A stretch of DNA of 64,000 bases from Psychromonas sp. SA13A (GTDB lineage: Bacteria; Pseudomonadota; Gammaproteobacteria; Enterobacterales; Psychromonadaceae). The notes below the pieces were generated by a model. That model did not search any database. It was given only the letters and a program-made list of their open reading frames with translations, and was not told the DNA's origin. This document shows, in pieces, positions 9,701-58,186 of this stretch; the stretch's first letter is position 1, and every line of letters begins with the position of its first letter. The stretch is from the NCBI RefSeq assembly GCF_011378715.1, contig NZ_WTKU01000002.1, positions 186,001 through 250,000 on the forward strand. Direction: 5' to 3'. The translations under genes were made by a program, and so were the position numbers.

Positions 9701-9905
9701 GGGTGTGCATAGCCGCAATGAGAGGGCTTATACACATATCGCAGAAATGAGCCGAGTCGGTAACTGTTATATCAATCGCGATCAAGTAGGTGCCGTAGTA
9801 GGAGTACAACCTTTTGGTGGGCAAGGTTTATCTGGTACTGGCCCCAAAGCCGGTGGCCCACGTTATTTACATCGTTTTACTCAACAAATCGTAAGTTCAT
9901 GTTAG
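6771..9905 (+). CDS. putA: Bifunctional proline dehydrogenase / P5C dehydrogenase PutA
   Basis: A 1044-residue enzyme that oxidises proline to glutamate in two steps with substrate channelling. An N-terminal helical arm precedes the FAD proline-dehydrogenase barrel (about 240-530; RLVKGAYWDSEIK and RRLLENGANSSFV motifs). The P5C dehydrogenase domain (about 570-1044) has general base Glu815 (VAETGGQN) and catalytic Cys849 (SAGQRCSALR). There is no ribbon-helix-helix domain at the N-terminus, and the length matches short type A PutA proteins, so it should not repress its own gene as the E. coli 1320-residue protein does. The start has AGGAG about 9 bases upstream. A CRP-like site precedes it, and the next two genes form its operon. 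Confidence 0.96.
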   Translation: MSSFIATDVLHKDFINTELATLWTHISPLYMADESACLKQLIPLATPSKDESNTMADYATDLIKRVRKDKNAVQMIDALLLEYSLDTKEGILLMCLAEALMRIPDSTTADALIKDKLSVADWKSHLKKSDSIFVNASTWGLLLTGKIVNLKKTRTNSTTNVVNSLVNKMSEPVIRKAMHQAMKIMGHQFVLGRNIDEAQKNGKGFTNKGCSYSFDMLGESALTASDAKKYYAAYLTAIESVGSKSINKNQANNAATVSIKLSALHPRYEPANKQRVMTEMFDSVLSLIERARALNVGLTIDAEEADRLELSLALFEKLYRDPKTQGWGKFGIVVQAYSKRALPVLVWLAALAKSQGDVIPLRLVKGAYWDSEIKLSQQNGYAAYPVYTRKEATDVSYLACARFLLCEHVKGLIYPQFASHNAHTIAAINSMSTHKEFEFQRLHGMGDALYNHVMTMSNSNVRIYAPVGSHKDLLPYLVRRLLENGANSSFVHRLVDADCPIDELIEHPVDTLLKRQSLHNSLIELPPAIFPDRKNSFSVNIDIESEALPFEKKVEVFTGHFWKMGPIVDGTHYNDVTEKTEVYQCTAPYDRTISVGSVVFSETQMIEKALSTAHQYFPEWSNTEVQERAQYLYKLADLLESNMPELIALCHHEAGKTIHDCIDEVREAVDFCRYYAQQAVDNFSNAETDVSFDGITQQIRHQGKGVFVCISPWNFPLAIFLGQIGAALVAGNTVIAKPAEQTSLIAVRTVLLMLEAGFPKQCIQLLTGNGAQIGSALTADHRIAGVVFTGSTGTAQVINRNLAKRPLLPATFVAETGGQNAMIVDSTALPEQVARDVVRSAFASAGQRCSALRVLFIQQDVAERVIELIKGAMQELAVGLPYLHSTDVGPVIDKTAKDKLNAHLQKMIAEHKLLAQVALNDSCAKGDFISPTAIEIDNLGQLSEEQFGPILHVIRFKAAELDNVIEQINNTGFGLTMGVHSRNERAYTHIAEMSRVGNCYINRDQVGAVVGVQPFGGQGLSGTGPKAGGPRYLHRFTQQIVSSC

Positions 9906-9916
9906 GAGAAAGTATC

Positions 9917-10630
9917 ATGTCAGAATCAATAACTGTAATGATCCAGCAAGCAAAAAAATCATGGTTAACATGGAATGAGATCAATATACATCAACGCATC
10001 GGGATCACTGCACAGTGGGGAGAGCGTTTAAAAGATAATCCTAATATTGGTGATATGCCGGCACACGTGATTGAATTTCATAATCGCCAAGCTATTTCGT
10101 TAATCGCAGAATCGCAAGTGATGCCTGGGCCAACGGGTGAGAGTAATATACTGAGCACCTCTGGTCGGGGTATATTTTTGATGATGATGGAAGAGGACTC
10201 CTCTATTCCAGCATTAGTGGGGCTATTAAACTGTGCATTAATTGCAGGCAATAGTGTTTTATTATTATCTAATTCTGTTAATAAGGAAATTGTCTCTAGT
10301 TTACAGCAAGCTTGTTCATTAACTGGTGTTGAAATGCCAGTGTTCATTGTTAAAGAGAAGGAAGCATTACAGGCTATCATTTCAGACCCTAGTATTGCCG
10401 GTGTTGGCTATGTAGGTAATGAGACACAGGCAATTAGTTTGAATCAAGCGTTAGCAGCTCGAACAGGACAAATTGCTCAATTAATTGCAGAAACAGATTT
10501 AGCACTGTTACCAACAGTACGAGATCAACATTTAGTATTACGCTTTATTACCGAAAAAACGCTGTCGACTAATGTCACTGCGGTAGGTGGTAACGCTACT
10601 TTATTAGCTTTAGGTTGCGGTGAGCAATAA
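9917..10630 (+). CDS. Short ALDH-like protein between putA and putP
   Basis: A 237-residue protein in the gap between putA and putP. Its sequence follows part of an aldehyde-dehydrogenase fold: a stretch LVGLLNCALIAGNSVLLLSN like the cofactor-binding region of PutA, then VGYVGNETQAISLNQALAARTGQIAQLIAETD, which mirrors the FTGSTGTAQVI and VAETGG segments. It stops before the catalytic Cys, so it is probably not an active dehydrogenase alone. Vibrio genomes carry a similar short protein here, often labelled P5C dehydrogenase. An ATG at 9899 inside the putA end is possible, but 9917 has GGAG at 9905-9908 and is preferred. A regulatory or structural partner of PutA is conceivable. Confidence 0.72.
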   Translation: MSESITVMIQQAKKSWLTWNEINIHQRIGITAQWGERLKDNPNIGDMPAHVIEFHNRQAISLIAESQVMPGPTGESNILSTSGRGIFLMMMEEDSSIPALVGLLNCALIAGNSVLLLSNSVNKEIVSSLQQACSLTGVEMPVFIVKEKEALQAIISDPSIAGVGYVGNETQAISLNQALAARTGQIAQLIAETDLALLPTVRDQHLVLRFITEKTLSTNVTAVGGNATLLALGCGEQ

Positions 10631-18899: not shown

Positions 18900-19607
18900 A
18901 TGATGAAGTCTCGTTTACCTCCCTTAGGCACATTATTAGCATTCGAGGCCGCAGCTGAACATAAAAGCTTTGCTAACGCCGCCAAATATTTATACGTCAC
19001 TCCTGCTGCGATCAGTCAACAGATACAAACATTAGAATCGCATTTAGATCTTGCCTTGTTTCATCGTTCGAAAACAGGCGTAAAATTAACCAGAGCAGGT
19101 GAAAGTTACCTACTGTTTGTGCAAGCAGGATTACATGAGTTGAGGTTAGGGCAACAGCATTTAACTCAATTTCGTCATCTAGATGTATTGACCATTAGCG
19201 CATTACCTTCAGTGGCACAAAAGTGGATAATGCCACTTGTTTTAGAGTGGATGGAGAAACATCCCGATATTGAAATTCGTATTCAAGCCGGCCATACAAA
19301 AATAAACTTTAATCATAGCGCTTCTGACATGTGTGTGAGTTTTGGTCAGAGTGGATACACAGGAATGCATAAACAAAAGTTATTTACTGATACTGTCACC
19401 ATGGTGGTTAGCCCTGAACTAACAAACGGGCTATTAAACGAACTATCAATTGGATCAGTAAGTAAGGAATTAAATGGCTCACTAAAGGAAAGCTCGAGTG
19501 TTGATGACTTACTAACCTTACCAATGATTCATATAGATTGGGGAGACGATAATAATAATTTACCACAATGGGACGAATGGCTGCGGCACCTAAGGTCAAT
19601 AAGGTAA
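18900..19607 (+). CDS. GcvA-like LysR regulator, C-terminally short
   Basis: A 235-residue LysR-type protein. The N-terminal winged helix-turn-helix (about 5-65: LLAFEAAAEHKSFANAAKYLYVTPAAISQQIQTLE) is intact and typical of the GcvA group. The effector domain begins normally (LTISALPSVAQKWIMPLVLEWMEKHPDIEIRI) but the frame ends about 65 residues short of the family's usual 300. The stop follows an odd stretch (WDEWLRHLRSIR), and no continuation is found in the other plus frames. It may be a decayed gene or retain DNA binding only. It is divergent from the 2OG oxygenase and probably controls it, or once did. Confidence 0.72.
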   Translation: MMKSRLPPLGTLLAFEAAAEHKSFANAAKYLYVTPAAISQQIQTLESHLDLALFHRSKTGVKLTRAGESYLLFVQAGLHELRLGQQHLTQFRHLDVLTISALPSVAQKWIMPLVLEWMEKHPDIEIRIQAGHTKINFNHSASDMCVSFGQSGYTGMHKQKLFTDTVTMVVSPELTNGLLNELSIGSVSKELNGSLKESSSVDDLLTLPMIHIDWGDDNNNLPQWDEWLRHLRSIR

Positions 19608-21136: not shown

Positions 21137-21426
21137 AGGTGAGTAGGCTCTTATAATTTTGTAGTGATTGTATAGGGTTAGGTTTGGCATCATTGCATTT
21201 TCAATAAAAAAGATAAACAAGTTCTCACCACTAAAAAATTAATCGTGTTTTAAGAAATGATCAGTAATTCGAGTAATTCCATAGTGATATTTTCCATTGG
21301 TCGATTAGTTAAATAGCGATACTTTGTTCAACTTAAGGTCATCGACTTTTGTAACCAATCATTATGTCTATTAGTAAAATTTAATAAGGTAGGGGCAAGG
21401 TGCTAATCCATGTTAATCAATAAATC

Positions 21427-22035
21427 GCATTGCTTGACGCAGGGCCTATTCAAAATAAACATATCACCGCTGAAGCTTGTGTACATCATCTTTGGTTTAG
21501 CAATAAAGATTATGCGCAGCTTGGCAAACAAATAAAATGCAACCCTGCCATTAAATATGGAAGTGATCGTGAGATGTTGTTAAAGGCATTGAATACCGAT
21601 CAAATCGATATTATTGCGACCGATCATGCTCCCCATACTTGGGATGAAAAACAAGTTCCTTATGCTTAAGCACCAGCAGGTTTACCTTTAGTTCAACATG
21701 CCTTGCTAAGTTTATTTGACCAAGTGAAAAAAGGGCACATGAGCATCGCTAAAATCGTTGAAAAAACCGCACATAATCCTGCTATTCGTTATCGGATTAA
21801 AGATCGTGGATTTATTCGAGAAGGTTTTTATGCCGACTTAGTCTTGGTAGATACAAAAACACCAACAGTGGTTAGCAATGAAAATAGTTTATATCACTGT
21901 GGTTGGTCGCCGTTTTCAGGGCACTCGTTTTCAGCACAAATCAAACATACCTGGGTCAATGGTGATTTGGTGTATGCAAATCAACAAGTGGACGGCAAAA
22001 CTGCTTCAGGAATGAGGTTACAGTTCGACGTTTAG
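21427..22035 (+). pseudogene. Dihydroorotase fragment (N-terminus missing, in-frame stop)
   Basis: Two in-frame pieces of one reading frame, 21430-21666 and 21670-22035, are separated by a TAA at 21667-21669. Together they encode about the last 200 residues of a dihydroorotase-family amidohydrolase: [16 protein letters not shown], the metal-site motif [14 protein letters not shown], then after the stop APAGLPLVQHALLSLF and the C-terminal GWSPFSGHSF block. The N-terminal half is absent: an in-frame stop lies at 21421, just before similarity begins. The gene is therefore both truncated and interrupted. It sits 355 bases before a COG0523 GTPase gene; such proteins often cluster with spare dihydroorotase copies in zinc-starvation gene sets, so this may be a relic of one. 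Confidence 0.88.
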
Positions 22036-24349: not shown

Positions 24350-25423
24350 TTAGTCACTCGTTCTCAAATGATCTTTTAATTGCGCCATCCCCTGATCTAT
24401 TGTCACTAATGCTTGGTAGTTAAAGTCTTGTTTTGCCGCTCTTATATTAAAGTAATGGCTGGTGGAAAGTTGCTTTGCTACAAAACGAGTCATGATTGGT
24501 TCATTAGTATTGCCAGTGCGTAAGTACCACCATTCTAATAGTGTTCCAACTACATAGGCAAGGCGACTCGATACTCTGGCTGTGACTTTTGGTAAGTTAG
24601 CTGCTGATAATATATTATTAAGTATATCGGCCATTAAAATAGGCTCATCGTTACTTAAAAAATACGCTTTTCCAGCACACTGTGAGTTTTCTTTATTCAA
24701 TTCTACTGCAGCAAGTAGATGGGCATAAACGGCATTATCAATATAAATAGTATCCACCAATTTATCTATTTTCCCCACTAGTTTTAATTTACCTGCCTTA
24801 GCACGCTCAATTACTCTAGGCACTAAATGTGGATCGCCAGGTCCCCATATAAGATGTGGCCTTAAGGCAACTGTTTTTAATTCCGCTGTATTTTGTTGCA
24901 GCACTTTCTGTTCAGCGACGGCTTTTGATAAACCATAAAAATTGAGAAATTGTTTTGCATAGGGCTGTGATTCATCAATATTCGCTTCATCTTCGCCATT
25001 AAAAGTGACACTAGGTGTACTGGTATAAATTAGTCGTTCAATGTTGTTTATTCGACATGCTTCAATAACATTGTCAGTGCCTATTACATTGGGTTTGAAG
25101 TAACTTTGTTTGTTTCCCCATACGCCGGCTTTTGAGGCAACATGGAATACAAGAGAGCAGCCTTGCATTGCATTGATCAATGATTGTTTATCCTGCAAGT
25201 CACCTTGAATTAATGTTACACCAAGTGCTTGTAAATGCGGGTATTGACCACGAGCAAACCCAACGACGTTAATATTTGCTGCGCGTAAGCAACGGCATAA
25301 TGCTGTCCCTAAAAAACCACCTGCACCGGTAACGAGTACGCAATCAACCTGCTCGCTAAGCTCTGTTAGAACAAGTTGTAGCTTCGGGTGAAGCTCAGAA
25401 AAGAGAAGGGGAGTTATCGCCAT
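24350..25423 (-). CDS. oleD: OleD, 2-alkyl-3-ketoacid reductase
   Basis: A 357-residue extended-SDR enzyme. Rossmann motif TGAGGFLG is at 32-39 and the catalytic pair Tyr163/Lys167 is in YGLSK, with the upstream TSTPSV serine region. OleD reduces the 2-alkyl-3-keto acid made by OleA to the 2-alkyl-3-hydroxy acid, using NADPH, in long-chain olefin biosynthesis. It is the last gene of an oleABCD cluster transcribed leftward, 48 bases after oleC. The N-terminal about 25 residues before the Rossmann fold are usual for OleD. The assignment is firm because all four ole genes are contiguous. Confidence 0.92.
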   Translation of the reverse strand: MAITPLLFSELHPKLQLVLTELSEQVDCVLVTGAGGFLGTALCRCLRAANINVVGFARGQYPHLQALGVTLIQGDLQDKQSLINAMQGCSLVFHVASKAGVWGNKQSYFKPNVIGTDNVIEACRINNIERLIYTSTPSVTFNGEDEANIDESQPYAKQFLNFYGLSKAVAEQKVLQQNTAELKTVALRPHLIWGPGDPHLVPRVIERAKAGKLKLVGKIDKLVDTIYIDNAVYAHLLAAVELNKENSQCAGKAYFLSNDEPILMADILNNILSAANLPKVTARVSSRLAYVVGTLLEWWYLRTGNTNEPIMTRFVAKQLSTSHYFNIRAAKQDFNYQALVTIDQGMAQLKDHLRTSD

Positions 25424-25471
25424 AATTTATCTCATTGTCGCTAGTATTTGGCTAAGTGTGCCGTATTGAAT

Positions 25472-27169
25472 CTACTCAATTTGTTGCTGTGCCCATAGCG
25501 CTAATTTTTCTCTGAATATTTTAGCATTATGGCGAATATCCATGGGAAATTTTTTATGGATATAAAACAACTCAATACCTTCTGTTTGTGTATGTTGTTT
25601 AGCTATCTCTTGTAATTCATGAAATAAACGAGCTGAATCATAAGTATTACTGTTTTCAACTTCGATGCAAACAGCCGGAGTGACTTTTTTATCTATAACT
25701 ACAGCCACTAATGCACTTCGTTTAATGCTTTTATGTGTATTAAATATGCGCTCACAGGGAATTGAATAGTAAGGTTTATTACATTCACGGTGATTAGACA
25801 AAACTTGATGGGCTTTGCGACCACACATCCATAATTTACCTTGGTCGTCCAGATAACCTAAATCGCCCATACGGTGACGCACACTATTACCATCTTTAAT
25901 TTTAGCCTGTGTTGTTGCTTGCTGACGATGGTAATAGGCTGAACTGACCTGTGGACCTTTTACTACAATCTCACCTATTTCAAAGGGGGCTAATATTAAC
26001 TGATCGTACCATGTATTTATGTTTTGCTCAGTGTTCTTAATGATTTTTATATCAACATGTTCAATTGCATTACCCACACAAATTCCACCACCTTGTTCGG
26101 TAATATTAGTTGTGGTTAATAATTGTTGGCTACCGATTTTACTGATTGGTAATGATTCTGTCGCACCATATGAGTTAATCACTTCTGCATCATCACTTAA
26201 CATGCGACTAAATAGATTAATTGCGTCTAAAGAAGCGGGAGCTCCAGCAGAAATAACACGCTTAATAGTAGGTAAATTGTGTTGTTGTTTCTGTCCTGCT
26301 TGGCCTAACACATCTAATAAAGCGGGGTTTGCAAATAGATTACTACATTGATATTTTTCGATAGCGGCAAAAATATAGTTTGGATTAGCTTTAATGGGTT
26401 GACTGGCATCCATCTCAGGTACTATCGATGTCATTCCTAACGCGGGGCCGAATAGTGAAAATAATGGAAAAGTCGCTAAATCTGCCTCACCCGGTTGAAT
26501 TTGGTAATCATTTTTTAACACACTGATTTGCGCTTCAAACATGCTATGGCTATAAACTACACCTTTAGGCGTTCCTGTGCTACCACTAGTAAATAAAATA
26601 GCAGCTAACTGATGGGGCTTAAGTTGATGCATTGAGTAGGGTTTAGCACGAGGATACTTTTTTAATAAACTTGATAGTTGAATACCACCAAAAATGGCCG
26701 GACCATTAACATTAATAACGTGTTTAATGGTTTGCTTGCCCCATGAAAAAAGCAATCGTGCGAGATGTGCTTTTGGGATGCCGATAAAAGCATCGGGTTG
26801 CGACTCTTCAAAGCATTGCTTGAGATTCTTAACCCCCATTCCAGGGTCAACTAAGATGGGAATAATACCTGTTTTGAAGAGAGCAAAGGTAAGGTTAAAA
26901 AATGCGATACTTGGAGTAACCATTAATACCGCTTTGTCACCTGCTTTAAGCCCTAAGCCGTTTAGTGCATAAGCAATATCATCACTTTGTTGGTGTAACT
27001 CAGCAAAGCTTAGATGTTGATAAGTTAAGCCTTTTAATGTCTTTTTTTGTACGCTAACCGCAAGGTTTTCAGGAAACTCTTTCGAGGCTGTCACTAAGTG
27101 GCGGCACAAGTTTCCTTTGTTTTTTTGGTTTTTAGTGCTTTTTTTTAATGACTTACGTGCATTGTACAT
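25472..27169 (-). CDS. oleC: OleC, beta-lactone synthetase (AMP-ligase fold)
   Basis: A 565-residue ANL-superfamily enzyme. The nucleotide-binding loop [17 protein letters not shown], the INSYGATE motif and the [19 protein letters not shown] hinge block are all present. OleC uses ATP to convert the OleD product to a cis-beta-lactone rather than to an acyl-CoA. Its ATG follows the oleB stop with no gap (TAA directly next to ATG), so translation is coupled. Many bacteria have oleB and oleC separate, as here; in others they are fused. The C-terminal domain is complete. Confidence 0.93.
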
Positions 27170-28051
27170 TTATGGGTTCTTATCCATAAATTTTTTCACT
27201 ATATCGATCACTTCATGACTTGCGTCTTCAAGGATATAATGCCCGCAATCGGCGAACTCGTGTACCTGTGCGTGTGGCATTTTTTGTTTCCAAACACTTA
27301 AAAAATGTTTATCGAAAACAAAATCCTGCAGTCCCCAACAAATGACAGTCGGAATATTCTGAAATTGTTGTAAACCTGCATCAATACTTTCCACTAACTT
27401 ATAGTTACGATGGTGTGGTAATAACGGAATATCTTGCACAAATCTTAGTGTTGAAATACGATTTTTCCATGAGTTGAAAGGAGCAACATAGGCTTGACGA
27501 ATGTCATTAGGCATTTTATTACGTTTTACGCCTACGTATGAAGCGGCAGAGGAGAAGGCATTAAAGCCACGCACAAGTACCGTACCTAAATACGTATTTC
27601 TACAAATCCATAATGGGATAGGGAATTTTTTAGATTTTGGTAAATTAAACGCAGCTGTATTTAAAATAACTAAACGTTTAATTCGCTCTGGGTGACGTGC
27701 TGCATAACCCATTCCGATCATGCCTCCCCAATCATGTACGACTAGGGTGATATTTTTTTTTATATTAAGGCTATCCAATAAGGTTTCAAGGTCATCGATG
27801 CGTTGTACCAAGGTATAGTCATAGTCTTTATCCGATGGTTTGTCTGATAAACCACAACCGATATGATCCGGAACAATACATTGATATTGTGCACTTAACG
27901 CGCTCACTAAATTTCGGTAATAGAATGACCAACTAGGGTTACCATGTACCATCACAACCGGTTCGCCAGAACCTTCATTTAAGTAATGGTACTTTTGACC
28001 ATTTAGATCTAGAAAATTGCGTTTGAAGGGCAATAAATTATCAAGACTCAT
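27170..28051 (-). CDS. oleB: OleB, beta-lactone decarboxylase (alpha/beta hydrolase)
   Basis: A 293-residue alpha/beta hydrolase of the haloalkane dehalogenase group. The oxyanion block VHGNPSWSFYYRNL is followed by the nucleophile Asp107 in VVHDWGG and a C-terminal His in ADCGHYILED. OleB breaks the beta-lactone to the cis-olefin and CO2. An upstream start (28069) would overlap oleA and lacks a ribosome site; ATG at 28051 has GGAG 7 bases before it and begins one base after the oleA stop, so it is preferred. It is the second gene of the cluster. Confidence 0.92.
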   Translation of the reverse strand: MSLDNLLPFKRNFLDLNGQKYHYLNEGSGEPVVMVHGNPSWSFYYRNLVSALSAQYQCIVPDHIGCGLSDKPSDKDYDYTLVQRIDDLETLLDSLNIKKNITLVVHDWGGMIGMGYAARHPERIKRLVILNTAAFNLPKSKKFPIPLWICRNTYLGTVLVRGFNAFSSAASYVGVKRNKMPNDIRQAYVAPFNSWKNRISTLRFVQDIPLLPHHRNYKLVESIDAGLQQFQNIPTVICWGLQDFVFDKHFLSVWKQKMPHAQVHEFADCGHYILEDASHEVIDIVKKFMDKNP

Positions 28052-28052
28052 G

Positions 28053-29102
28053 TTACCACTCCAATCCAAGCATCATACAATTCAAACCACTGCCTATTCC
28101 TAAGAAGCTGACATTGTCACCTTTTTTTAGGAATCCTTGTTCATCTGCTAATGCAGCAGTAACCGGCAGTGAGACGGTTCCCATGTTACCGAGGTATTGA
28201 TAAGTCGGAAATTCTTTTTCCACGGGAATATTTAATGCAGCAAGTACCTGCTTTTGATTGGCAGAACCAACTTGGTGACAAATCACCTTATTGACGCTGT
28301 CTACTGTCCATTGTTGCTGTGTTAAAAAATGTTGCCAAGTATCAAGTGCTAAGGCGACACCTTCTTTCAGTAATGGGACTGCATTAGTACGCATAAATTC
28401 TCGGTGTAATTTAAGACCCACTTCTTGTAAGCCCCATTTACATAAATCATGATGTTGTGGCGCAGAGAGGTGGCTAGCACCTAATAGTTTATGTTGACGT
28501 TGGTTATCTAACTGCAATGAACCATCGGTCAGCAATACTGCTACCGCACCAGATCCGCCAGTTAAAGTGGCCAATGATTGTGAAAAGTTTTGAATGGTTG
28601 GGTTAGAAATCATGTTGTCGATAGTAATATCTACAATATGCCTTGCGGATTCGCACGAGACAACTAAACCGGCTTTTATCTGGCCTAATTCAATACGGTT
28701 TGCGATGTCCAAAATGCCCGATAACACACCTAAACATGCGTTACTAATATCGTAAATAGCGGTACTTTTATTAACACCAATTTCAGCAGCGATACGACAA
28801 GCTGTAGCAGGCTCATGTTGATCGCGACATACTCCCGTATAAACAACTGCTCCAATATCTTCTACATTAATGCCTGTTTCATTTAAAGATTTTTTTGCTG
28901 CTTCAATGGCTCCATCTGATAAGCGATGATCGCTAGGCCACCAACGTCTATCTTCAATGCCCGTTAACGCAGCGAGTTGACCAGCTGGTATACGTAATTT
29001 TTGATATAAAGGCGCAAGACGAGCTTCTAGATCTTTACTTGAAACGACTTCTGGGGCTAATTCATAAGCCATACTATTGATATAAACGCGGGAATATTTC
29101 AT
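28053..29102 (-). CDS. oleA: OleA, thiolase-fold acyl-chain condensing enzyme
   Basis: A 349-residue thiolase-superfamily enzyme that joins two fatty acyl-CoA chains head-to-head in a non-decarboxylative Claisen condensation, giving a 2-alkyl-3-keto acid. The catalytic triad is Cys123 (ISNACLG), His276 (ICHQVGSANQ) and Asn306 (YLGNMGTVSLP). Glu97 in RDQHEPATA matches the extra OleA glutamate that acts as base and separates it from FabH. It is the first gene of oleABCD. In Shewanella, Psychromonas and Colwellia relatives, ole products are long polyunsaturated hydrocarbons; which chains are used here cannot be read from the sequence. Confidence 0.95.
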   Translation of the reverse strand: MKYSRVYINSMAYELAPEVVSSKDLEARLAPLYQKLRIPAGQLAALTGIEDRRWWPSDHRLSDGAIEAAKKSLNETGINVEDIGAVVYTGVCRDQHEPATACRIAAEIGVNKSTAIYDISNACLGVLSGILDIANRIELGQIKAGLVVSCESARHIVDITIDNMISNPTIQNFSQSLATLTGGSGAVAVLLTDGSLQLDNQRQHKLLGASHLSAPQHHDLCKWGLQEVGLKLHREFMRTNAVPLLKEGVALALDTWQHFLTQQQWTVDSVNKVICHQVGSANQKQVLAALNIPVEKEFPTYQYLGNMGTVSLPVTAALADEQGFLKKGDNVSFLGIGSGLNCMMLGLEW

Positions 29103-29255
29103 TAAGTTGTAATTTTTCTCATTAATGCTTCAAAAAGGACCAATTTAATCAACCCTTAAACCGGAGGCGTAGGTTACCGTATATTCTGAGTTTAACAAAG
29201 TCCAATCCTAAACTGACTTCTAAATACTGTTAATTTTGATGAAAATTAGCTAGTT

Positions 29256-31409
29256 TTAAGCTTTTAACGGTTTGTTTTTGCTTATATAACTTAACCATTG
29301 ACGCGGAATTTTCATTTTTTCATCAATATAATTAGCAACAGGTAAGCTTTCTTTGTTTATTTTGCTTACTAAAATCTCTGCTAATAAAGGGGCACTGCAT
29401 AAACCTCGAGAACCTAAACCTGTCAATAGGTAAGCATTAGGTAGCGATGCTATAGGGTAGGTGAGAGACTCATTCATCTCATAACTTTTTTTCAGGCTAT
29501 CATAATCGCTTAATTCACCTACATAGGGGAAATGGTCTCGGGTTGTACAGCGGATAGCGGTATGGGCTTGATCATTTAACACAATATTATCTACCCATGT
29601 TTTGTCAGTAATACACTTTTTCAATTTTTGGTGATTATCGTTTTGCTCTGTTTCACGATAAGCCGTATCACTATCATGGCGCTTAAATGTCGCGCCCATA
29701 CAATGTTGCGCCGCTATTTCAGGTGTTAAATAACCCTCATGGCAAAGGGTTCGTTTTAACGCTGTCAGTTCAGGTGTCGAGTCGATATGGCTGACTTGAC
29801 CACGCGCAGCGGAAAGAGGAACGGCTCTACACTGTTGAAAATTAAGTGAATCAAAACCAGCCGCAATCACCAGAGTTTGATGTTTAAAGGTATCTGTATT
29901 TTCTGTTACGTTCTCTGTTTGGCTCTGCTCTGGGGTTGTCTGTAGTGATATATCTAAGGTATTTTCAGGTAGGGCATTTTTTGAAATACTAGTACGCTTT
30001 CTTTTTAATATCCATTGCTCATTATCATTTGCATGCTGGTTATAACTAATCTGTTCAATATGATGATTACAATGAATAGTGACATTGTCATATTCAGCTA
30101 ATAACTGCGCTAACGAGTTTATTAACTGTCGAGGGCTCAACCATCCTGCTCGTGGATAATATAAAGCAGGGTGGTCAATTTCTAGACCTGCTAATTGGTT
30201 TGTTGAGTTTGTATCTATCCAATGCACTAATTGTTCAGGCAAACCTGCTTCTTTTATCTTTTGTAATTTTTTCGTCGAGCTTGAGTCGTATGCGAGCTGA
30301 ATTAATCCATTAAATTGATGTGAAAAAGGATGATGTTGATTAACTTCATGATAAAAATTCAAAGCGAACTGATAGGCATTACTGAATAATTGTCCAAGTG
30401 CATCATGTTGTCCATTCAAAAGAGGATATAAGGCTCCTTGTAAATTACCAGACGCGCCTGTGCCTAATGTTGACTCCGCACAATAAACAGTTACTTTATG
30501 ATCGCGTTTTGCTAATGCAAGGGCGGAGCATAATCCTGCAATACCACCCCCAATGATAGCGATGTCATCTGCTTGCTTGGGGGTTGCTCTAGTTGTTCCT
30601 GTTGAGAACGCTACATGGTTATCAATGGGATTCGCTTCAGGAATATACCCTACAAGCATTTCACGTTTTTTCCCGTAACCTTTTCGCTTTTGCATAATAA
30701 AACCGGACTCGTTCAACGCTCTTCTTACAAAACCTGCCGCAGTAAAAGTGGCTAATGTTGCTTGAGGGTTAGATAATGCTACCATTTTTTTAAATAATGC
30801 TAGATGCCACATATCAGGATTAGTGCTGGGATTAAAACCATCGAGATACCAAGCATCAGCAATACCATTGTGGGTATTACTTAGGTTGTCGATTTGTTCA
30901 TTAATATCACCAAACCATAAATCCAAAATAATATTGCCACCATCAAAGAATAATCGATGACATCCGAGTAGTGGCATCGGATATTGCACCACAAGAGATT
31001 CAAGCAAGTTGCTAAATTGTGGCAATTTTTTAAGGCTTAACTGAATATCATTGCTAGTAAGTGGGTATTTTTCAAAGCTAATAAAATGTAAACGTTGCAG
31101 TGGTTTTTCTATATTGTTTTTTTTGAAATTGATGAATTGTTGCGCACTATTAAGAAAGTTGAGACCCGAACCAAAGCCAGTTTCTACAATACAGAACTGT
31201 TTTTGCTTAAAATTAACCCATCTGTGAGCTAAATGGTTGCCTTCAAAAAAAACATATTGAGATTCGCAGTGACCTTGATTATTATTAAAATAGATATCAT
31301 CAAACATAGTCGAATATGGCTCTGACTGATCTGACCAGTTAAGTTGTGCATGCTTAATTATATTGTTTTTGGCTTGAGACAAGTTATATTCCTCTATATA
31401 TGCGATCAT
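29256..31409 (-). CDS. mnmC: Bifunctional tRNA mnm5s2U methyltransferase/oxidoreductase MnmC
   Basis: A 717-residue two-domain enzyme for the last two steps of mnm5s2U34 synthesis in tRNA. The N-terminal methyltransferase (about 1-250) has the SAM loop VETGFGSGLNFL and the DAWYLDGFNPSTNPDMW block. The C-terminal FAD oxidoreductase (about 280-700) starts with DIAIIGGGIAGLCSALALAKR and ends with LLTGLGSRGLCSAPLLAE. It is somewhat longer than E. coli MnmC (668), with the extra length in the oxidase domain (about 480-510, Ser/Thr/Glu-rich). It is divergent from fabB, as in E. coli. Confidence 0.95.
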   Translation of the reverse strand: MIAYIEEYNLSQAKNNIIKHAQLNWSDQSEPYSTMFDDIYFNNNQGHCESQYVFFEGNHLAHRWVNFKQKQFCIVETGFGSGLNFLNSAQQFINFKKNNIEKPLQRLHFISFEKYPLTSNDIQLSLKKLPQFSNLLESLVVQYPMPLLGCHRLFFDGGNIILDLWFGDINEQIDNLSNTHNGIADAWYLDGFNPSTNPDMWHLALFKKMVALSNPQATLATFTAAGFVRRALNESGFIMQKRKGYGKKREMLVGYIPEANPIDNHVAFSTGTTRATPKQADDIAIIGGGIAGLCSALALAKRDHKVTVYCAESTLGTGASGNLQGALYPLLNGQHDALGQLFSNAYQFALNFYHEVNQHHPFSHQFNGLIQLAYDSSSTKKLQKIKEAGLPEQLVHWIDTNSTNQLAGLEIDHPALYYPRAGWLSPRQLINSLAQLLAEYDNVTIHCNHHIEQISYNQHANDNEQWILKRKRTSISKNALPENTLDISLQTTPEQSQTENVTENTDTFKHQTLVIAAGFDSLNFQQCRAVPLSAARGQVSHIDSTPELTALKRTLCHEGYLTPEIAAQHCMGATFKRHDSDTAYRETEQNDNHQKLKKCITDKTWVDNIVLNDQAHTAIRCTTRDHFPYVGELSDYDSLKKSYEMNESLTYPIASLPNAYLLTGLGSRGLCSAPLLAEILVSKINKESLPVANYIDEKMKIPRQWLSYISKNKPLKA

Positions 31410-31495: not shown

Positions 31496-32710
31496 ATGAA
31501 AAGAGCAGTAATTACAGGTATCGGTATTGTTTCTAGTATAGGTAACAATAAAGAAGAAGTATTAGCATCACTTAAAAGTGGCAAGTCAGGCATTACATTT
31601 TCTGAACAATTCAAAGAAGTTGGGATGCGTAGCCAAGTTTGGGGTGATTTAAAAATAAATCCTTCAGAGCATATTGATCGTAAAGTAATGCGTTTCATGG
31701 GTGATGCAGCTGCATACACTTATTTGTCAATGCAGCAAGCAGTTGCAGATGCTCAATTACCAGAAGACATGGTTTCTAATGTACGTACTGGTTTAGTGAC
31801 AGGCTCAGGCGGAGGTTCTTCAAAAAACCAAGTTGATGCATGCCAAATTATGAAAGACAAAGGCGTTCGTCGTGTTGGTCCTTATATGGTACCGCGTACG
31901 ATGGCGAGTACTACTTCGGCTTGTGTAGCGACACCATTTAAAATTAAAGGTATCAACTACTCAATGAGTTCTGCTTGTGCGACAAGTTCGCACTGTATTG
32001 GTCATGCCCTTGAACAGATCCAACTTGGCAAACAAGATATTGTTTTTGCCGGTGGTGGTGAAGAGTTAGATTGGACAATGGCTTGTGAGTTTGATGCAAT
32101 GGGCGCTCTTTCAAGTAAATATAATGAAACACCAGATAAAGCATCTCGTACTTATGATACAAAACGCGATGGTTTTGTTATCTCTGGCGGCGGCGGTATG
32201 GTTGTTGTTGAAGAATTAGAGCATGCCCTTGCTCGTGGCGCTAAAATCTATGCTGAAATCGTAGGTTACGGCGCAACGTCAGATGGTTACGACATGGTCG
32301 CGCCATCTGGTGAAGGAGCAATACGTTGTATGCAACAAGCACTTGCCACAGTTGAAGGTAAAGTTGATTACTTAAATACTCATGGTACATCAACCCCTGT
32401 TGGTGATGTTAAAGAGTTAGAAGCAATTAATGCTGTATTTGGTAACGATGCTCCCAAAATTAGCTCAACTAAATCACAAACAGGACACTCATTAGGTGCT
32501 GCGGGTGTTCATGAAGCAATTTACAGTATATTAATGATGGAAAATGACTTTATTTCTCCTTCTTGTAATATTGAAGAAGTTGATGAGAAAGCGCTTAACT
32601 TGCCAATCGTTAAAAATAAATCAGAAGCTGCTAAATTAGATATCGTTATGTCTAATAGCTTTGGTTTCGGTGGAACTAACGCAACATTAATTTTTAAACG
32701 TCATCAATAA
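31496..32710 (+). CDS. fabB: Beta-ketoacyl-ACP synthase I FabB
   Basis: A 404-residue condensing enzyme of type II fatty-acid synthesis, required for elongation of unsaturated chains. Catalytic Cys161 (SSACATSSH), His296 ([10 protein letters not shown]), Lys326 and His331 ([14 protein letters not shown]) match the KAS I pattern Cys-His-Lys-His. It works with FabA (45607-46146 in this window), which makes the cis-3-decenoyl precursor. It is divergent from mnmC, as in E. coli, and followed by a strong terminator. Confidence 0.97.
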
Positions 32711-45606: not shown

Positions 45607-46146
45607 TTAGAAACTTGAAGTATCAACAAATAAACCTACTTTTAGGTCTTCTGCTGTATAGATAACTTTTCCATCTACTTCTACAACACCGTCAGCAATA
45701 CCCATTACAAGTTTACGCATAATTAAACGTTTCATTGTGATGCGGTAGGTTACTTTCTTCGCGGTAGGTAATACTTGGCCTGTGAATTTTACGTTGCCTA
45801 CACCTAATGCACGTCCTTTACCCGGACCTCCGCTCCAACCTAAGAAGAAGCCAACTAGTTGCCACATTGCATCAAGTCCTAAACAGCCAGGCATAACAGG
45901 GTCATTAGGGAAGTGACATTGAAAAAACCATAAAGCTTTATCAATATCTAATTCAGCAATTAATTCACCTTTACCATGCTCTCCGCCATCGGAAGTAATA
46001 GAAATAATGCGATCCAGCATGAGCATGTTATCAACAGGTAGTTGACAGTTGCCTTCACCAAATAGCTCACCTTGACCACATTTAATAAGTTCTTCTTTGT
46101 TGTAAGAGTTTTTACCCAACTCTTTTTGGGATACGATTTTAGTCAT
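45607..46146 (-). CDS. fabA: 3-hydroxydecanoyl-ACP dehydratase/isomerase FabA
   Basis: A 179-residue hot-dog-fold enzyme that dehydrates 3-hydroxydecanoyl-ACP and isomerises the product to cis-3-decenoyl-ACP, the entry to unsaturated fatty acids. Catalytic His78 ([11 protein letters not shown]) and Asp92 (LGLDAMWQ) match E. coli His70/Asp84 spacing exactly. A GTG two codons upstream (46152) is possible; ATG at 46146 is preferred. It pairs functionally with fabB. The gene order fabA-lonH is as in E. coli. Confidence 0.97.
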
Positions 46147-46242
46147 AATCACTTTTCTTAAGATAATTGATAAGGTGAGGTATTAAAGAGGAAATTAACT
46201 TAATACCACGAAATAATGAGCGCCATACTGTATATGAGCTAG

Positions 46243-58075: not shown

Positions 58076-58186
58076 TGGTAGGCCTCTTGGTTTCTCGCAT
58101 TGATAACTTATTAACCTGGTCAGAGCCGGAAGGCAGCAGCCATAGTAGGTGATTCAAGTGCCGAGAGTTTGCTGGGAGGTCTACCA
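58076..58186 (+). ncRNA. ffs: 4.5S signal recognition particle RNA
   Basis: A 111-base sequence matching bacterial 4.5S RNA. The conserved apical region reads ACCTGGTCAG-AGCCGGAAGGCAGCAGCC (58114-58141), with the GGAA tetraloop and the asymmetric loop that Ffh binds. The ends pair: TGGTAGGCCTC (58076-58086) with GAGGTCTACCA (58176-58186). With Ffh this RNA targets membrane proteins to the translocon. Ends are judged from pairing. The remainder of 57614-58075 shows no gene. Confidence 0.94.

Follow-up and report, generated by a model that had tools for sequence, protein, structure and literature searches.

An intact oleABCD operon of Psychromonas sp. SA13A, probably coupled to the pfa genes of the same genome

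INTRODUCTION

The closest described counterparts of the locus analyzed here are found in Shewanella, Photobacterium profundum, and Xanthomonas. In Shewanella (S. oneidensis MR-1 and S. pealeana), the same four ole genes lie in the same order, and the genome contains pfa as well. The sections of two papers drawn on here (PMC6463001 and PMC4882568) report that Shewanella OleA takes 16:4n-3 from the carrier domains of PfaA, that OleD, OleC, and OleB complete the hydrocarbon C31:9, and that C31:9 rises in the cold; OleA was shown to be the link to Pfa in E. coli and Shewanella (Allemann and others 2019, PMC6463001). P. profundum SS9 has the same gene set, PfaT included, with ole, pfaT, and pfa adjacent, but made no C31:9 that could be detected (PMC6463001). 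The OleABCD enzymes of Xanthomonas campestris share folds and residues with those described below and use type II FAS chains (PMC6463001, in part). Co-occurrence of pfa and ole has previously been reported, in 44/80 genomes (Shulse and Allen 2011, PMC3098273, in part).

Here we describe an ole locus from Psychromonas sp. SA13A. The window, meaning the whole 64,000-nucleotide stretch of DNA that was analyzed, covers positions 186001-250000 of its contig in a genome of 4.57 Mb that is 99.98% complete. An earlier note, made from the sequence alone, had proposed a complete olefin cluster in this window.

RESULTS

An intact oleABCD operon. Window positions 24350-29102 hold the oleABCD operon of a Psychromonas species; the operon is chromosomal, intact, and of a kind already known. 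ORF calls gave all four genes intact on the minus strand, in the order oleA, oleB, oleC, oleD (Table 1); with OleC and OleD over their model cut-offs and OleB recognized by fold, residues, and position, the cluster is complete, as the earlier note had claimed. The likely start of oleB is an ATG at 28051, and the listed ORF start, a TTG at 28069, lies inside oleA and need not be invoked. The intergenic gaps are 1 bp (oleA/oleB), 0 bp (oleB/oleC, abutting), and 48 bp (oleC/oleD), the first two agreeing with the earlier note. Because of this last gap, close coupling is suggested for oleA-oleB-oleC only. In contrast to this tight spacing, the oleA-oleB gaps of 14 Shewanella loci span 47-172 bp.

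Table 1. Positions of the features discussed (window coordinates unless marked as contig)
Feature	Position	Strand	Description
oleA	28053-29102	-	349 aa; thiolase-fold enzyme, head-to-head condensation of two acyl chains
oleB	27170-28051	-	293 aa; beta-lactone decarboxylase with haloalkane dehalogenase-like fold; named by fold, residues, and position
oleC	25472-27169	-	565 aa; olefin beta-lactone synthetase; NF045785 match and motifs
oleD	24350-25423	-	357 aa; 2-alkyl-3-oxoalkanoate reductase; NF042423 match and motifs
mnmC-oleA intergenic stretch	29103-29255	-	Holds block conserved among Psychromonas
Promoter-like site	29198-29193 (TTGTTA), 29176-29171 (TAACCT)	-	16-bp spacer; in aligned Psychromonas block
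mnmC	29256-31409
fabB	31496-32710
fabA	45607-46152
Frame behind putA	9899-10630	+	243 aa
LysR/GcvA-like regulator	18900-19607	+	235 aa
Dihydroorotase-like remnant	21221-22035	+
Small SRP RNA	58085-58180	+	Bacterial type
pfaR-like gene	137921-138814 (contig)	+	Directly before pfaA; named by position
pfaA, pfaB, pfaC, pfaD	138836-157706 (contig)

Family assignment and catalytic residues. On NCBI's olefin-specific models, OleC scored 951.5 bits on NF045785 (cut-off 850) and OleD 597.1 bits on NF042423 (cut-off 580), so that both pass the Shewanella-type models, whereas both remain below the cut-offs of the Xanthomonas-type models (562.6 bits against 900 for OleC; 394.6 against 580 for OleD). OleA reached 507.4 bits on the broad model PRK09258 (cut-off 285), and the best model for OleB was haloalkane dehalogenase, at 163.8 bits, under its cut-off of 241, with no OleB-specific model matching. 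Among solved structures, the twelve best matches of OleA (E <= 2.1e-50; next match, 1.2e-19) are titled "3-oxoacyl synthase III" and are, we assume, Xanthomonas OleA.

The earlier note's statement that catalytic residues are intact in all four enzymes was borne out across 29 scored loci, the window locus among them. All 29 keep OleA E97, C123, H276, and N306, OleB D107, D243, and H271, and OleC SYGATE and K550; the OleC P-loop is likewise kept in 29/29, save for T200, found in 23/29. OleD Y163 and K167 are kept in 28/29, the exception being L043, because the start finder shortened that ORF. This count comprises 28 distinct loci, L053 and L029 being the same record, and leaves aside L013-L022 (ten loci, all partial) as well as L046, which is distant at 22% identity. 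The roles of the scored residues other than OleA C123 are presumed; a C123 mutant was inactive (PMC6463001).

Mean identity to the 7 named Psychromonas loci was 93.2% for OleA, 87.0% for OleB, 78.9% for OleC, and 77.8% for OleD, and to 14 named Shewanella loci 79.4, 74.7, 60.9, and 62.5%, respectively. OleA is the best conserved of the four enzymes, which would be in line with its docking on the Pfa synthase as well.

A genus-specific neighborhood. As the earlier note had observed, the cluster lies near mnmC and fabB, with fabA in the same window. The order fabB, mnmC, oleA, oleB, oleC, oleD, ygjP-like recurs in 7/7 named Psychromonas loci, and the ole-fabB distance is 5.6-5.7 kb in four more Psychromonas genomes (three single-contig, one two-contig). 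By OleC, the nearest named relative is Psychromonas arctica DSM 14288 (91%). Position behind mnmC distinguishes the operon from its Shewanella counterparts: only 1/14 named Shewanella loci has mnmC and fabB inside the fetched flank, differently arranged, and for this reason the adjacency is a genus trait and no sign of function. A shared neighborhood with Shewanella algicola (L041) was considered and judged independent, since ole there faces mnmC from the opposite side. OleC exceeds its cut-off in 21/24 Psychromonas genomes; the three others have an 841-bit match, a split gene, and, in a genome 51% complete, no strong match.

Several other features of the window were seen (Table 1). The dihydroorotase-like remnant is open in its C-terminal part alone, with in-frame stops upstream; the frame behind putA resembles part of the aldehyde dehydrogenase domain of PutA, at 72 bits against a cut-off of 747; the LysR/GcvA-like regulator appears shortened, its match stopping at residue 177; and the small SRP RNA is the sole Rfam match above gathering score in the window.

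The region upstream of oleA. In an alignment of 10 Psychromonas sequences, 8 show the block upstream of oleA clearly and the other 2 show it in part, and the promoter-like site within it is a putative oleA promoter. A consensus promoter/terminator scan, whose list lacks this site, performed at chance level (16 found against 18.1 expected, and 3 against 3.9). An element close to TTTTCTTGYTCMAATG lies upstream of oleA in Shewanella and Motilimonas-like loci (L030-L045, L050, and L052). No such element was seen upstream of Psychromonas oleA, where a different conserved block takes its place; this distinction between the two is possibly a new point. Shared control of ole and pfa through the Psychromonas block was rejected: the block was not found in the stretches fetched around pfaR, pfaA, and pfaT (closest matches, 3-4/15 mismatches), and a search of the window allowing up to 3 mismatches gave no more matches than expected by chance (2 found against 2.2 expected).

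The upstream difference bears on whether the operon is used at all. An intact operon that, in ordinary growth, yields hydrocarbon sparingly or not at all would resemble P. profundum SS9, in which oleABCD stands beside pfa and no product was detected (PMC6463001), and an oleA upstream region unlike those of Shewanella and Motilimonas would suit such a state. However, use is suggested by conservation of the upstream block within Psychromonas, by the mean OleA identity within the genus, and by the presence of OleC over cut-off in most genus genomes, and we regard a near-silent operon as improbable.

pfa genes on the same contig. The genome search for pfa genes that the earlier note had proposed found pfaABCD on the contig of the ole operon, with the end of pfaD ~53 kb from oleD, and pfaT with a PUFA-type pfaE a further ~45 kb away. 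PfaA, with six ACP domains, PfaB, and PfaD exceed their model cut-offs, and PfaC is named by position and a partial match. The PfaT homologue has the ORF6 thioesterase as its best solved match (E 5.5e-71). The pfaT and PPTase genes stand side by side at ~91-93 kb of the contig (L056), ~45 kb before pfaR, their matches 0.8 kb apart. The PPTase has the three motifs given by Shulse and Allen (PMC3098273) for PUFA-type PPTases, provided that the first motif may have a cysteine at a hydrophobic position. Thus, unlike in SS9, where these genes are adjacent, pfaT/PPTase, pfaR-pfaABCD, and ole form three pieces within ~124 kb. Separately, the pfaR-like gene scores 76 bits on an IS481 transposase model (cut-off 224), hinting at a transposase origin. 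In two genomes of genus g12 (L050 and L052), the same parts are contiguous, running from oleDCBA through pfaT, a PPTase, and a pfaR-like gene to pfa; we take g12 as Motilimonas-like because its oleA upstream region nearly equals that of named Motilimonas loci.

Co-occurrence of ole and pfa. Presence across the order was scored in 394 genomes from 118 genera, each genome at least 90% complete, with thresholds of E <= 1e-150 for OleC and E <= 1e-100 for PfaD. OleC was present in 60/394 genomes (55 over cut-off) and 6/118 genera, and PfaD in 81/394 genomes, 21 of them without OleC. All 60 OleC genomes have PfaD (Fisher p 2e-53, uncorrected for relatedness and drawn from 6 genera only), all 60 have PfaT, and in 29/60 ole and pfaD share a contig.

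These counts weigh on the source of the OleA substrate. OleA could instead condense type II FAS chains (16:1, 16:0, and 14:0) to mono- and di-unsaturated C27-C31 olefins, in the manner of Xanthomonas and Stenotrophomonas; the window does hold fabA and fabB, which serve monounsaturated chains. Xanthomonas OleA works in this way (PMC6463001, in part), but the OleC and OleD scores fall on the Shewanella side, and ole without pfa occurred in 0/60 OleC genomes of the order sample, so that we consider such a product quite unlikely here. The fabA/fabB system that the earlier note had associated with the cluster is not the likely source of OleA chains and would not be required for C31:9, because PUFA producers have been reported to use 16:4n-3 made by Pfa as the precursor (PMC6463001), and this portion of the note found no support.

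Physical nearness of ole and pfa was considered as a selected trait. Across 15 single-contig genomes, which are related and mostly of rounded size (the two-contig G017 omitted), the median ole-pfa distance was 0.163 of the maximum, compared with 0.353 for gyrA-pfa and 0.488 for fabB-pfa. However, gyrA-pfa distances depart from uniform as clearly as ole-pfa distances do (KS p 0.00035 and 0.00067, respectively), and in genus g6 the ole-pfa distance is 0.23 or more in 5/10 genomes. Together with relatedness and rounded sizes, these results weaken the case that nearness was selected for, though it may have been.

PPTases in Psychromonas. No AcpS exceeded the model cut-off in any of 24 Psychromonas genomes; in controls, the same model matched 8/14 genomes, 5 of them over cut-off. 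A PF01648 search of the SA13A genome found one PPTase, and the PUFA-type enzyme beside pfaT may be the only one, although a divergent AcpS may have escaped the model. Weak AcpS-model matches were present in 19 Psychromonas genomes, and the position of pfaT was known in 16 of these. The match, a putative PfaE, lay 0.2-10.3 kb from pfaT in 12/16; of the remaining four pairs, one is separated by 1.5 Mb and the other three are split between contigs. Psychromonas pfaT has been stated to be unlinked to the pfa or ole operon (Allemann and others, PMC6463001, in part). Closeness of pfaT to a PPTase in most Psychromonas genomes tested is possibly new, as is the lack of any AcpS over cut-off in the 24 genomes; in the parts of the literature on pfaE in Psychromonas and on sole PPTases that were covered, no such Psychromonas report was noticed.

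DISCUSSION

We think it probable, by analogy with published Shewanella work on substrate, step order, product, and cold response, that this operon condenses Pfa-made 16:4 into hentriacontanonaene (C31:9). OleA would take two such chains and condense them, OleD would reduce the beta-keto acid, OleC would close the beta-lactone, and OleB would remove CO2 to give C31:9, the output of which would probably be higher in the cold. Pfa-made 16:4 is the most likely substrate because pfa is present in the same genome and every OleC genome of the order sample has PfaD and PfaT. The polyunsaturated C31 product foreseen in the earlier note is well supported, if indirectly, by pfaABCD, pfaT, the PUFA-type PPTase, and the published OleA-Pfa link, and is tempered by P. 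profundum SS9, in which no product was detected. Shulse and Allen (PMC3098273) note that DHA was scarce or lacking in the Psychromonas strains that had been studied. In the mostly open-access literature covered, PMC6463001 was the only paper to mention both Psychromonas and polyunsaturated hydrocarbon, and no hydrocarbon measurement for Psychromonas was seen in the sections covered.

A broader and more tentative model, which we hold to be somewhat less probable than its negation, is that Psychromonas has a scattered regional ole-PUFA system in which PfaE has replaced AcpS. As the sole PPTase, PfaE would then have to activate, in addition, the carrier protein used in essential fatty acid synthesis. 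Bacteria with a single PPTase exist, Pseudomonas with PcpS being one example.

In sum, the coupling of PUFA and hydrocarbon synthesis already known from marine bacteria of cold waters gains a clear example here that spans a genus, with no case of ole without pfa among the 394 sampled genomes of the order. If the broader model is true, a single activating enzyme would underlie both the polyunsaturated pathway and basic lipid synthesis. Should PfaE be the only PPTase, Psychromonas would offer a simple test bed for how one such enzyme serves essential lipids as well as special ones.
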